Positions 23,995 through 38,246 of a DNA stretch of 38,246 nt are shown here, piece by piece. The notes below the pieces were generated by a model. It worked only from the letters and a program-made list of their open reading frames with translations. It was not told the origin of the DNA and did not search any database. Position 1 is the stretch's first letter; each line of letters begins with the position of its first letter. A program made the position numbers and the translations under genes. Location: contig JALOPB010000001.1 in assembly GCA_025454115.1 (NCBI GenBank), forward strand, positions 1 through 38,246. Reading direction: 5' to 3'. Source of the DNA: Desulfobacterales bacterium (GTDB taxonomy: Bacteria; Desulfobacterota; Desulfobacteria; Desulfobacterales; SpSt-501).

Positions 23995-25980
23995 TCATAT
24001 TCCGCCCATCCAAGTCCCGGCCACCCGCCGCCTGGTCACCACCCGTTTCTCCACCAGCTGCTGGGCGGGTGTCTTTGGTTTTTCATTTTCATTCGCCACC
24101 GACTTGGCCGACTGCCGCTGCAAATCGCCCTCCTTGGCCTTGACGTAGCGGGCGAGCCCTGAGAGGTTCGGGTGCCACCCATTGTCGGCGCAGGCCGCGG
24201 CGTAGATCTCGCAGTCGAGCAGGTGGTTGTCGCTTCTGGTCTTAACCCACTCGATCCTCCCCTTGCGCGTGCGCCGCAACTCCTCCGCCAAAAACTGCTT
24301 GGTGTAGTCGACCCCGGTCTCGGCGTGCAGAAAAAAGCGCTGGCTTTCGGCAGCGATAACGTTTCCGTTTTCGTCTACCTTCTGGTCGCGTCGCGTCAGG
24401 CGCCAGTGCAGGAGCTTCTTCAACTCTCCTGTGTCGAGCATCCTCAGCTCGATCCCGCCCGGTATCGGCTTGTTGCTGCGCGGCATGCGGTCTATCGCCT
24501 GGGGGTAATTGACACGGATCAGTTGTGGGCGGCTGGATCCCTTCACGGCAAAGATCACCTGCCGCGCGTCCCGGCGTCCATGGGCGCGGATGAATTCATA
24601 GATCTCCTCGGTGCGGCTGATGGCCTCGTCGTCGGCGCCCTTGCCGCCGCCGGTGTCCATGGCGGCTCGCCAGATTTGCAGGCGCTCGCCCGTGCCGTCC
24701 TTATGGAAATACGTGTCGAACACCAGCGCCCGAACATCATCGAAGGTCGACAGATAGCCGTACTGTACCAGGTGGCTCGTCAAATCCTCCCCCCAGGCCC
24801 GCACCACGAACCAGAACCCGCGCTTCTGCACGTCGATGCCGGCCGTTAGCGCAACCGTCCACGACGGGCATATCCCCGGCGGAAGGTCCGTCTTGCGCTT
24901 GAACAGATCCCCCTCGGCCTTGGACTCTACAACCTCCTTCCACGGCCGCGCCTGGTGCTGCGTGACAAAGGCCTGGAGCTTCTTCGGATCGTCCTTGCCC
25001 TTAAGAAAATCGGCCGCGGCCTTGGAAAGCGACACGAACGGAGAATACCAGGACTCCAACGGGCCGAAGGCGATCGCCGTCGGACGCTCGACCGGCGTTT
25101 CGGCTTTCCACCTTCCGCCACGCACGGCCACGTTGCGGGCGTGGTCGTCCCAGTCCATGCCGCAGTGAGCGCAGGAGTAGCGGGCGAGCTTGCCGCGAAG
25201 CACTTCGCGGTGGTCACGCTTTCCGTGCCAGTGGATACGCTCGAAGCCCATGATCTGCAGGTGGCCACAGATCGGGCACTTCGCGTGGTAGCGACGGGTC
25301 TCCTCCGCCTCTGATCGTATCAGGCGGTCGAAGGCGTCTCCGTCGAGCTTTGGCGTGCTGTAGAAAATCTGCTTGCTCGTGTACTGGTACGAGTTGGTGC
25401 GGACATCGCCAAGGCTAAACGGGTCCGCCTCGTCGCCGACAAAATCAGGATATTTACCGGGCTCGTCCCAAAGTATGTAGCGCACGGACTCGGACGCCAT
25501 CGCCGCGGCCGATGTCGCCCAGACCATCATCAGGTCCATGCCGTTTACAAAGTTGACGTGCATGGTGGTGACGTCGTCGATCCTGGAGGAGAGCAGCGCG
25601 GCCGTTTTCGGCGTCGAGCGGATTGTGGGGATTAACTGCCGCTTCGCGATCCGCTTGCTGACCTTCTCGTCCGGCATTACGTACATGGCGGGCCCTGGGT
25701 CGACGTCGATCGCATAAAGCATGAAATTTAGCCCCACGGAGGTCTTTCCGGTCTGTGGGGCCCAGCACAGGAAAACCTTGCGCACCCACGGCAGCGCGAT
25801 CGTGTCCATGGGCTCGATGCAGTACGGCGTGACCTCGTTCCGCCACTTGCCTTGTGCGGGGCCCCTGACCACCATGCGATATTTCTCAGCCCACTGGCTG
25901 ACACTGATCCGCTCGCGCGGGCGGAATACGCGACGCTCCGGATCCGTGAAGTGGTCGATGGCGTATGCGACGGATGTCAT
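23995..25980 (-). CDS. Terminase large subunit, lambda gpA family
   Basis: 661 aa; RISVSQWAEKYRMV...GKWRNEVTPYCIEPMDTIALPWVRKVFLCWAPQTGKTSVGLN; Zn-ribbon CPICGH...CAHCGMDWD; ILWDEPGKYPDF; C-terminal nuclease region. Confidence 0.93.
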   Translation of the reverse strand: MTSVAYAIDHFTDPERRVFRPRERISVSQWAEKYRMVVRGPAQGKWRNEVTPYCIEPMDTIALPWVRKVFLCWAPQTGKTSVGLNFMLYAIDVDPGPAMYVMPDEKVSKRIAKRQLIPTIRSTPKTAALLSSRIDDVTTMHVNFVNGMDLMMVWATSAAAMASESVRYILWDEPGKYPDFVGDEADPFSLGDVRTNSYQYTSKQIFYSTPKLDGDAFDRLIRSEAEETRRYHAKCPICGHLQIMGFERIHWHGKRDHREVLRGKLARYSCAHCGMDWDDHARNVAVRGGRWKAETPVERPTAIAFGPLESWYSPFVSLSKAAADFLKGKDDPKKLQAFVTQHQARPWKEVVESKAEGDLFKRKTDLPPGICPSWTVALTAGIDVQKRGFWFVVRAWGEDLTSHLVQYGYLSTFDDVRALVFDTYFHKDGTGERLQIWRAAMDTGGGKGADDEAISRTEEIYEFIRAHGRRDARQVIFAVKGSSRPQLIRVNYPQAIDRMPRSNKPIPGGIELRMLDTGELKKLLHWRLTRRDQKVDENGNVIAAESQRFFLHAETGVDYTKQFLAEELRRTRKGRIEWVKTRSDNHLLDCEIYAAACADNGWHPNLSGLARYVKAKEGDLQRQSAKSVANENEKPKTPAQQLVEKRVVTRRRVAGTWMGGI

Positions 25981-26600
25981 GCTTCGATCTTCTCCAGTCT
26001 GCCGGCATCGATACTTTCCGGAAGCTCGTGGTGCGCGTCCTCGGAGTACCTGGCCAGCCAGCGCTCGGAGGCCTCGAGCATGTACTCAATCACGTCCGGG
26101 GCCTTCAGGTCGTCTCCGGACACCAGCTTGATCATCTCGGCCGAGCTGCTGCGTATAAAGTTTTCAATGTCGCTTTTAAATACCGCTGCGCGCCGCGCCA
26201 GGGCCGCCTCGAAGGCAGAGCGCTCGACGTATTCACCTTTCAGGATCCTGGTCTTGATCTCCCAGTGCTCGGCCTGGGCGCTGACCTTGCGGGCCTCGGC
26301 CGCGGCCTTGTCGTCTGCGACCGCAGGAGAGGCCGGTCGCATCTTTAGGCCGCCGCTGCCGTCCTTCAGCTTCAAAAAAGTGCCGGCATACCGCTCGACG
26401 TCTTTGACAAGGAATGTCCCGTCAGACTGGGGCCTGAGCTTCCCTTGGTCGCGGTGACGGTAGACGGTCGCCTGCTTAACGCGGTACTTGTCGAGCCCCT
26501 CAAGGTATCGCACCACCTCGAGGATACTCTTCAACGCCTCCGGTTTTTCGCTGGGCGCCTGGCTGATCGAGAGCTGCTCTGTCACTTGATTATTTCTCAT
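25977..26600 (-). CDS. Terminase small subunit (HTH, Nu1-like)
   Basis: 207 aa upstream of TerL, N-terminal HTH (YRVKQATVYRHRDQGKLRPQSDGTFLVKDVERYA). Confidence 0.75.
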   Translation of the reverse strand: MRNNQVTEQLSISQAPSEKPEALKSILEVVRYLEGLDKYRVKQATVYRHRDQGKLRPQSDGTFLVKDVERYAGTFLKLKDGSGGLKMRPASPAVADDKAAAEARKVSAQAEHWEIKTRILKGEYVERSAFEAALARRAAVFKSDIENFIRSSSAEMIKLVSGDDLKAPDVIEYMLEASERWLARYSEDAHHELPESIDAGRLEKIEA

Positions 26601-26830: not shown

Positions 26831-27853
26831 TCACAGAGCTCCGATAAGGTCGGCGAGTTCGGTGAGCATCTTTTTGTATTCCTTGCTTTTGGTCTGCTCG
26901 TCGCGCTCGTGGTAGTTTCCATTTTTGGTCCTCATGATCTTGTCAGCGTAGGCCCACGGCTCGCCCTTGATCTGCTCCCAGTACTGGGATAGACCATCGA
27001 GTGAGTCGATCACCGCCTGGGGGTGACCAGCCTTGTTGATCCAGTGTTGGACCCACTGGTAGGGATTGAAGGACCTTGACCCATTGGCCATGCCTTTCAG
27101 CGTTTCACACTTGGCCCGTATCGTCTCGGCGTACTCACCGGCCCGTTTCACAAAATGCCCTTTTTGTTTCAGCCCGGCGCCGCCCTTGGCGCCGGATAGT
27201 ACTTTAGTACTATCCTTTAGAGGCGGTAACGGGGACGGAAACGGAGACGGAGCAGAAACGTCAGCAGGTGCTGGTTTTTGATGCTGTTCTGCTGGCAGCA
27301 TGCTGGCAGCACTGCTATTTTCTGCTGTAGCATGCTGGCTGCATGCTACAGCATGCTGTAGCATGCTGGCAGCATGCTGCGGCATGCTATTAGCATGCCG
27401 CAGCAGGAAACCATATTCAGCAGGATCAAAGCCGTATTTGTCTTTTGCCATTCTCCAGGCGGCATCTTCGCCGTGGTGCTTTATCAGGGCCTTCATCCTG
27501 GCCCTGTTGCTGCGGTCCTTCGACCCTGACGCCCAGCCCTGGTGCTGGGTCCAGTCGTGGACGATCACCACGCCATCGGCCCGGCGCTCGATCCAGCCTG
27601 ATTTTTCAAGGGCAGAAAGCAACTCTCCCGGCTCTCCCGTCCACCTGACCTCGTCGGCTATGTCCTGGTCAGTCCACCCATTCAGTACGCCACCCGGCCG
27701 GCTGACCGCTGTCGCTATCCACAGATCGAGCAGATAGCCGACAGCGCCGGAGCCGAGCATGCTTTCGAGCTTCCGGCGCTTTCGGTGGCCCCTCAATAGT
27801 ACGGATACGCGGATGTCTGAGATCACACGATCCCCTTTTCTTTGGCCAGCCAC
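26831..27853 (-). CDS. Replication initiation/organiser protein (lambda O-like or phage replisome organiser)
   Basis: 340 aa; N-terminal winged-helix-like domain (LLDLWIATAVSRPGGVLNGWTDQDIADEVRWTGEPGELLSALEKSGWIERR), linker, C-terminal helical domain; carries clustered palindromic repeats. Confidence 0.7.
   Translation of the reverse strand: MAGQRKGDRVISDIRVSVLLRGHRKRRKLESMLGSGAVGYLLDLWIATAVSRPGGVLNGWTDQDIADEVRWTGEPGELLSALEKSGWIERRADGVVIVHDWTQHQGWASGSKDRSNRARMKALIKHHGEDAAWRMAKDKYGFDPAEYGFLLRHANSMPQHAASMLQHAVACSQHATAENSSAASMLPAEQHQKPAPADVSAPSPFPSPLPPLKDSTKVLSGAKGGAGLKQKGHFVKRAGEYAETIRAKCETLKGMANGSRSFNPYQWVQHWINKAGHPQAVIDSLDGLSQYWEQIKGEPWAYADKIMRTKNGNYHERDEQTKSKEYKKMLTELADLIGAL
27194..27215. 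repeat. 22-bp perfect inverted repeat next to the iteron cluster
   Basis: GGATAGTAC-TTTA-GTACTATCC. Confidence 0.85.
27298..27398. promoter_or_regulatory. Putative intragenic replication origin: eight GCATGC palindromes, seven phased at 10-11 bp
   Basis: GCATGC starts at 27298, 27330, 27341, 27351, 27361, 27372, 27382, 27393; 26-bp perfect palindrome at 27341-27366. Confidence 0.7.
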
Positions 27854-30218: not shown

Positions 30219-30388
30219 CACAAACAAAGCGCCAGCGACGCCAGCGCGGTCAAGCAGGTGCCGATCGCCACGGACGCGAGCAGCGACTGGGCGATCTCGC
30301 GCGGGCTGAATCTGTCCTCGGGCTCCTCGTCGCGGATCCAGCGGCCTCGGTGCTCGTCGTAAACGTAGGGGAAGGGTTCGGGGGTCAT
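30218..30388 (-). CDS. Small membrane protein
   Basis: MTPEPFPYVYDEHRGRWIRDEEPEDRFSPREIAQSLLASVAIGTCLTALASLALCL. Confidence 0.45.
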   Translation of the reverse strand: MTPEPFPYVYDEHRGRWIRDEEPEDRFSPREIAQSLLASVAIGTCLTALASLALCL

Positions 30389-31101
30389 GCGGTCCTCCTG
30401 AATTGGATAACCCACACCCACGGATTGCTCTCCCATGGGTGCTTTTTGCCGTTGATTGATTCCCAGATTTTCGCGAACTGATCGCGCTCTGAAAAGACGG
30501 CCTGTCGGCAAGTTTTGGGAAGTTGATCGATTGGTATTTGGCTGCCCTCGGCGATTGCGTCTTCTTCGCTAATTTCCTGCAACCGCTCCACGCGAACGCC
30601 GGTGATCTCAAGCGTGATCCGGCTCGCCCAGCGGGGCATGTGGATGGAGGGACGCCAGCGTCCGCCATACGTTGAAAGGCTAAATGTTCTGGCTGGTTCT
30701 TTGAAGCATTTGCGATAGGCATCAGATTCGATTATGTAACCGTGATGAATCCAAAACCTGCCGCCGCCACCATCGCCAATCCACGCTCCGCATTCAGCAT
30801 CAGCGGCGTATCCGACGATGTTCTTTTGTTCCGAGCACCATTTTTCCCTCACCCACAGCCGGTCTCCTGGCTGTCCGTAGGGGCAGCGCACAAAATCATC
30901 CGCGCAGCAACCACACCACAATTTTCCGCTGTGCCCGGCGGTTTGGTATCCTTCCGGCGTGGTGGCGCACATTTCTTCGGGCTGCCAATCGAAGCCGCAG
31001 TCGCACGGAATTCTTTTCACAATACGCCGCGTCTGCGTCTTACGGCCCTCAAGGATGGCGCGGACCATCGGGCCGCTAAAAATAATCGGACGATCTCTCA
31101 A
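30385..31101 (-). CDS. ASCH-like phage protein
   Basis: RPIIFSGPMVRAILEGRKTQTRRIVK...GQPGDRLWVREKW...LEITGVRVERLQEISEEDAIAEG; TTG start overlapping upstream stop (TTGA). Confidence 0.7.
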   Translation of the reverse strand: MRDRPIIFSGPMVRAILEGRKTQTRRIVKRIPCDCGFDWQPEEMCATTPEGYQTAGHSGKLWCGCCADDFVRCPYGQPGDRLWVREKWCSEQKNIVGYAADAECGAWIGDGGGGRFWIHHGYIIESDAYRKCFKEPARTFSLSTYGGRWRPSIHMPRWASRITLEITGVRVERLQEISEEDAIAEGSQIPIDQLPKTCRQAVFSERDQFAKIWESINGKKHPWESNPWVWVIQFRRTA

Positions 31102-31274
31102 GCCGCCCTCCCGCACGCGCCATCCGCCGGCAGTTCGGCGAACTGGCTCTTGATGTTCAGCATGGTCTCGTCGAAGCAGCGCTCGCAATAGCCGTGACTG
31201 TCGCGGACATCCGAGCGGCCGTCGGGCTTGGTTCCGTAGATGCGGCCACAAACGCAGCAGACGCTCCTGATCAC
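31098..31274 (-). CDS. Small zinc-ribbon protein
   Basis: GTG start; CCVCGRIYG...GYCERCFDE; start and stop overlap neighbours. Confidence 0.55.
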   Translation of the reverse strand: MIRSVCCVCGRIYGTKPDGRSDVRDSHGYCERCFDETMLNIKSQFAELPADGACGRAA

Positions 31275-31471
31275 AGCGCACCCCCGACGATGGCCGCCGC
31301 TGCCGAATATATTTCCGCTCTGCCGAAGATCTCCCGCAGGTTCTCGATCGCGGCGACCAGGTCCTGGGGCGGATGGTATTCGCGATGCCAGTGGCGGCAC
31401 TGTGGATCTCCGCCGGTCCAGGCCGCCGTTGCGATCTCGACGGCGCCGCAGTCTTTGCAGGTCGCGCTCAT
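31271..31471 (-). CDS. Small Cys-containing protein
   Basis: 66 aa MSATCKDCGAVEIATAAWTGGDPQCRHWHREYHPPQDLVAAIENLREIFG. Confidence 0.5.
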   Translation of the reverse strand: MSATCKDCGAVEIATAAWTGGDPQCRHWHREYHPPQDLVAAIENLREIFGRAEIYSAAAAIVGGAL

Positions 31472-38046: not shown

Positions 38047-38246
38047 TTACGCCTCCTTGACCGGCAGGCAGAGCGAGCAGTAGGCCGCGAGCGCCTCGGC
38101 CTCGGTGGCTTTGCCCAGGTGCGTGTTCCAGTATTTTTTATAGTAGGCGGCCTGGTCTCCGGGCGCCTTCGGGATCGGGCCGGGCTTCAACCAGTAGAAG
38201 CAGCGGGCGAGCGCCGTGGCATAGGCCAGGTTGTGGATGATGTCCC
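38047..38246 (-). CDS. 3' part of the junction-spanning lysozyme-like protein (...ARCFYWLKPGPIPKAPGDQAAYYKKYWNTHLGKATEAEALAAYCSLCLPVKEA*)
   Basis: 397 + 101 unique nt = 498 nt, exactly 166 codons after circularisation. Confidence 0.75.
   Translation of the reverse strand, partial: DIIHNLAYATALARCFYWLKPGPIPKAPGDQAAYYKKYWNTHLGKATEAEALAAYCSLCLPVKEA
38148..38246. repeat. Right copy of 99-bp exact terminal direct repeat
   Basis: Identical to 1-99; merging the copies restores an ORF across the junction. Confidence 0.97.

Follow-up and report, generated by a model that had tools for sequence, protein, structure and literature searches.

The replication origins of lambda and of the Stx lambdoid phages lie inside gene O, between the parts coding for the DNA-binding and C-terminal portions of the initiator (PMC7466680, PMC3349717). 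In lambda, four 18-bp iterons with short spacers are accompanied by a 38-bp AT-rich tract (PMC3349717). Repeats are also found within the O-like gene of Pseudomonas phage MD8 (PMC8508860). The RepA_N initiators of plasmids and of the PLE satellite bind iterons containing inverted repeats through a winged-helix N-domain (PMC7145576; 5kbj). At oriC of Bacillus subtilis, with its DnaD recognition element and DnaA-trios, double-strand boxes are placed beside very short repeats that are read on a single strand (PMC10201434). For the PHROG 9474 family of initiators, the literature searched holds no description of an origin structure. Nor did we find helically phased iterons described for the initiator genes of phages, though the search covered few subscription papers and is weak evidence in this respect.

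We analyzed a stretch of DNA of 38,246 nucleotides, hereafter the window, in which a block of phased palindromes very probably represents the intragenic replication origin of a phage, bound by the phage's own winged-helix initiator, judging from sequence comparison. The mode of replication is probably theta-type. Bases 1-99 of the window are identical to bases 38148-38246; in all likelihood, therefore, the window comprises an entire phage genome of 38,147 bp that is circular (or circularly permuted). The IMG/VR contig 3300037461_000613 (38,173 bp) is identical to the window over the 6.2 kb compared. Profile matches reveal genes for an integrase, a repressor-like regulator, a GpA-type large terminase, a portal, and a major head protein, and this gene content identifies the source as a temperate tailed phage. 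Pfam and PHROG profile searches of the window found no P-like or otherwise recognized helicase-loader gene beside the initiator gene, and an 81-aa ORF between the initiator and small terminase genes has no PHROG match. Of the early-region genes scanned that have no known function, the best conserved is a 298-aa ORF (30385-31281) matching phrog_874 (unknown function, E 2e-71). GC skew was dropped as evidence for an origin, because the skew in the window mainly tracks the strand of the genes.

The protein encoded by the gene that carries the block has a significant profile match at residues 23-108 to the PHROG 9474 "replication initiation protein" (E 3.4e-12). In the Pfam search, the lambda O family gave no match to this protein, and Phage_rep_org_N was found only below the threshold. 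The N-domain is modeled by AlphaFold2 with pLDDT values above 90 over most of its length, while the stretch encoded by the iterons and the Pro-rich code, located between the N- and C-domains, is of low confidence. The coordinates and the model thus support the original prediction, which placed the iterons in the linker separating the DNA-binding domain from the C-terminal one; this linker is disordered. Fold searches gave no match with E < 0.001 and returned only winged-helix look-alikes and unrelated proteins. Among them, the sensible matches belong to winged-helix proteins, one being the RepA_N Rep-DNA complex 5kbj (probability 0.97, E 0.046, not significant). Matches in a profile search against solved structures fall only or mainly in the Pro-rich low-complexity part. 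The C-domain of the window's protein is of a type common to relatives L005, L004, and L158, whereas other domains take its place in other relatives. The types found are that of the window, L005, and L158, a phrog_270/9327 type, and a DnaD-like type. Such variation is expected of a part that meets different loaders, and the C-domain probably recruits a helicase or a loader.

Table 1. Features of the initiator locus (positions in the window)
Feature	Position	Strand	Basis or remark
Small terminase subunit gene	25977-26600		Follows the initiator gene in gene order
Replication initiator gene, 340 aa, GTG start; contains the putative origin block	26831-27853	-	PHROG 9474 and ORF list
Helical C-domain code, residues 227-340, exchangeable part	26834-27175	-	AlphaFold2
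Hairpin, 9-bp perfect stem and 4-base loop: GGATAGTAC TAAA GTACTATCC (gene sense)	27194-27215	.	
Degenerate array of hexamers, CCGTCTCCGTTTCCGTCCCCGTTACCG in gene sense, corresponding to the CCDTCT arrays in relatives	27224-27250	-	
Iteron array, eight GCATGC in 101 bp	27298-27398	.	Sequence; same phased design in relatives
7-bp variant iteron GCACTGC (GCAGTGC in gene sense)	27309-27315	.	Sequence; GCANTGC forms common in relatives
26-bp perfect palindrome spanning three iterons	27341-27366	.	Sequence
N-domain code (residues 13-140) for a predicted DNA-binding winged helix that has a long helix at its C-terminal end	27434-27817	-	AlphaFold2

The GCATGC sites of the array start at 27298, 27330, 27341, 27351, 27361, 27372, 27382, and 27393. 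The sequence count bears out the original prediction of eight sites within this part of the replication gene, with the last seven at steps of 11, 10, 10, 11, 10, and 11 bp. The predicted palindrome and a 16-bp direct repeat (27324-27339 and 27355-27370) are likewise correct. Taken together, all eight sites phase best at a period of 10.5 bp (circular resultant, 0.981). The GCACTGC variant, a form also used by relatives, occupies part of the 32-bp gap from 27298 to 27330. GCATGC is not enriched over the whole window (20 sites seen versus 17.9 expected), and the unusual feature is its clustering and phasing, not its abundance. The self-similarity of the linker DNA in the window is raised at lags of 10, 21, and 31. 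The GC content in 50-bp segments from 27200 to 27450 is 0.46-0.56, without a strongly AT-rich block.

The relation of the array to the reading frame should be noted. GCATGC is read in all three codon phases, as had been claimed and as the phase count confirms. The accompanying claim that the spacing is not a multiple of three holds for the single steps but not for pairs, since 10 and 11 bp sum to 21 bp, that is, seven codons. Most sites therefore alternate between two codon phases, and the linker shows a weak seven-residue echo (QHAASML/QHAVACS). In 20,000 synonymous recodings drawn from the codon usage of the window with the protein fixed, the maximum was seven sites and the longest phased run was six. 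The nine GCATGC sites and the phased run of seven observed in the gene were matched by none of the 20,000. The same number of shuffles of the gene's own codons gave identical maxima, never reaching the observed pattern.

Relatives were gathered by protein similarity alone, with no DNA pattern used. Matches were found in 6 of 96 genomes (one being the window's own), at 72 viral loci, at loci from 23 of 395 genomes of the phylum, and at 15 loci in a species-level genome collection. The nearest relative, L158, comes from a Desulfobacteraceae MAG; its identity is 40%, and the same linker contains five GCATGC sites. To describe the spacing, we measured the self-similarity of the linker DNA at lags of 4-49 and expressed it as z against 100 shuffles of the synonymous codons of each gene. 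Over 79 genes, the mean z is 1.42, 1.15, 0.71, and 0.57 at lags 11, 22, 33, and 44, and below 0.4 at all other lags. Over 87 genes, the mean z of the linker is 1.51 (lag 11) and 1.18 (lag 22); the corresponding values are 0.21 and 0.13 for 153 neighboring genes and −0.19 and −0.04 for the part of those 87 genes that codes for the N-domain. The distances between GCA(N)TGC sites in 81 protein-chosen relatives agree with this result: 47, 55, 30, and 21 lie within half a base of 11, 22, 33, and 44 bp, respectively, versus 0, 0, 1, and 0 within half a base of 5.5, 16.5, 27.5, and 38.5 bp. Two or more such sites are present in 60 of the 81, and several of the remainder use another palindrome. One-turn spacing in the linker code is thus kept family-wide, the comparison that the original prediction had proposed as a check. 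As to whether the protein can be kept with the iterons absent, most relatives keep them, but three distant cultured phages whose homology is partial (FP_Lagaffe, Shimadzu, and Harrison) lack them and give no 11-bp signal. The period of 10.5 bp in the window differs in detail, not in kind, from the 11 bp usual in relatives. Selection at the DNA level for one-turn phasing across replication initiator genes is well supported by this comparison.

Conversely, when viral contigs were scanned by DNA only for three GCATGC one turn apart, 43 stretches were returned. Fourteen of them, including the window's own contig, encode a homologue of the 340-aa protein, and in these the sites are mostly near the middle of the gene. 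At least three further stretches carry other replication genes (DUF1376/primosomal in L042 and L050; phrog_3926 in L034). About half of the 43 are in other or unknown genes (e.g., L027, L014, and L010); phased GCATGC outside recognized replication genes may be in part chance and in part other protein-binding arrays. The DUF1376 N-domain encoded by the genes with phased arrays in L042 and L050 belongs to a different Pfam family, suggesting that another type of initiator may use the same iteron.

In most relatives, the iterons are directly followed by an array of CC(G/T/A)TCT (CCDTCT) hexamers coding for (Pro-Ser)n, and the order of iterons, hexamer array, and hairpin is found in many of them. 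According to statistics that are exploratory because array and hairpin were both noticed after the fact, the Ser codon of the array is TCT in 344 of 350 cases versus 79 of 583 in N-domains, the Pro codon is almost never CCC (4/579), and the codons between the array prolines end in T in 497 of 591 cases. Slippage may explain the uniformity of the array within one phage but not the near-universal TCT. In the window, the array lies about 46 bp from the last iteron, farther than in most relatives, and is a possible unwinding or single-strand recognition element. The single-strand motif TnnT of DnaD was rejected as a general reading of the array, since CCG-type arrays contain no TnnT. Searching viral contigs for (CCNTCT)5 yielded at least 86 ORFs in the Pro-Ser frame, at least 36 of them in the initiator family; the others scanned, among the matches listed, include both unrelated genes and replication proteins (primosomal, DnaD-like, and O-like). 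The control scan for (CCNAGC)5 gave at least 53 ORFs, with none in the initiator family among the matches listed, and the 34 of these ORFs that were scanned gave no replication-family match, again among the matches listed. This distribution suggests that the CCNTCT array is an origin element common to unrelated initiators. In viral contigs L173-L292, CCNTCT arrays are located mid-gene in other phage replication families (primosomal/DUF1376, DnaD-like, and O-like).

The hairpin beyond the array lies in a stretch of the window with a DNA fold z of −3.9. In relatives it is often 10-30 bases past the array. By an equally exploratory count, a tetraloop hairpin with a stem of at least 6 bp occurs in 23 of 72 genes, or about one-third of relatives, whereas other parts of these genes would lead one to expect 3.0. 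The loops are commonly TGAC, TATC, TAGC, or TAAC, closed by C-G. With this closing pair, the loop displays CTG or CTA, which we would guess to be a start site for primase.

An array of palindromes on one helix face would also suit cooperative repressors. Initiators often autoregulate, a further point for reading the block as an operator array that serves a repressor or the initiator's own regulation, with transcription control and no origin function. We regard this reading as improbable, since the array is placed in the middle of the gene, some 450 bp into the coding sequence, at a position kept in relatives, and since the iterons adjoin a hexamer array found again in several families of replication initiators.

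Alternatively, the block might be a packaging (pac/cos) site recognized by the small terminase subunit. The terminase genes adjoin the initiator gene in the window and, by sequence, probably also in L158. The iterons, however, stay with the initiator gene where its neighbors are replication genes, namely, those for a DnaC-like loader (L018), a primase/helicase (L061), a helicase (L051), and NinB (L038), which makes a packaging site very unlikely.

Equally slight is the probability that a nucleic-acid structure, a cruciform or an mRNA hairpin, is selected rather than protein binding to each hexamer. The block does contain a 15-bp perfect inverted repeat (27375-27389/27391-27405), and the single strand of 27290-27410 folds strongly, at −53.4 kcal/mol (z −8.1). 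Contrarily, relatives such as L051 keep the 11-bp phase with non-complementary spacers, so that the long hairpins are peculiar to the phage of the window. The Rfam scan of the window was empty, which also argues against such a structure; a tRNA scan was empty as well.

The motif itself changes among relatives. Sites of the CGTTAACG type recur every 11 bp in L006, and those of the GTTTGCAAAC type every 11 bp in L004. GTATAC/GTAATAC is used in L169 and L161, TTAACG forms in L108 and L078, and GCANTGC in a large group of relatives. In L004, the GTTTGCAAAC-type sites form two separate 11-bp-phased clusters (1209-1290 and 1458-1517), one in the N-domain code and one in the linker, which are mutually inverted. 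The GCATGC group has the linker peptide AC..HA.SM, because the three codon phases force this peptide, and other motifs give different peptides. Since motif and peptide change while the spacing stays, selection acts on the DNA, keeping the phasing rather than the peptide. Motif classes cluster only weakly on the N-domain tree, with 3 of 200 shuffles as low when all labels are taken together on a poorly resolved 88-row tree. Protein repetition, microsatellite-like expansion, or chance without selection on the DNA can hardly account for the array, even if the 21-bp double step leaves its heptapeptide echo and slippage can enlarge repeats, in view of the synonymous null, the three reading phases, the family-wide 11-bp phase after synonymous correction, and the different peptides under different motifs; the earlier claim that protein repetition is insufficient is upheld by these controls.

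We return to the reading of the block as an origin, for which we consider the following mechanism the most likely. The winged-helix N-domain would bind the GCATGC palindromes, probably as dimers. Because the sites recur every 10.5-11 bp, initiator molecules could stack side by side on one helix face, one per turn, to form a filament or a wrapped complex. This complex would strain or open the adjacent DNA at the pyrimidine-rich hexamer array and the hairpin, some 50-100 bp farther along in the direction of the gene. The exchangeable C-domain would then recruit the host helicase or its loader, and helicase and primase would be loaded where the strands open, at the array and the hairpin. Binding by the 340-aa protein, the melting site, and helicase loading are the steps that we infer.

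The same arrangement recurs in dozens of distant phages, in many cases with another palindrome. We put at even chances the broader proposal that these loci constitute a widespread and apparently undescribed class of phage origin, with phased iterons subject to motif turnover, a CCDTCT unwinding or recognition array, and a priming or loading hairpin in a fixed order, the iterons being common to varied C-domains and the array also to other initiator families. One odd repeat becomes a rule that can be put to the test: the 11-bp phasing of palindromes, taken with the CCDTCT array, could allow the origins of many uncultured phages to be located straight from the sequence of their initiator genes. 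The arrangement suggests a compact initiator filament with one unit per helical turn, in which the motif changes faster than the spacing, and offers a natural system for the co-evolution of initiator and origin. The hexamer array is a candidate unwinding element without AT-richness.

Among the known systems, PHROG 9474 is related through N-domain homology, and many relatives match it over most of their length; the protein of the window differs in matching over its N-terminal part only and in having a C-domain of another type. RepA_N and PLE initiators share a winged-helix N-domain, predicted here, and 5kbj is among the top fold matches, but the iterons of PLE are non-coding and longer with a central A tract, and the fold match is weak and non-significant. 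Parallels with B. subtilis oriC provide a possible model for the hexamer array, whereas the array here is CCDNNT with a period of 6, not generally TnnT, and the initiator is not DnaA. The original prediction called the origin lambda-type, which is apt for the iterons inside the initiator gene between its N- and C-parts but not for the Pfam family, the iteron geometry, or a P-like gene, and no clear AT-rich tract was found. The likeness to lambda O comprises the mid-gene iterons and, presumably, the binding of the initiator to its own gene and an adjacent strand-opening stretch. Origins inside the initiator gene are thus already known from lambda O; different here are the iteron geometry, with 6-7 bp palindromes at each helical turn, the hexamer array and hairpin in place of a clear AT tract, and a protein that does not match the Pfam family of lambda O.
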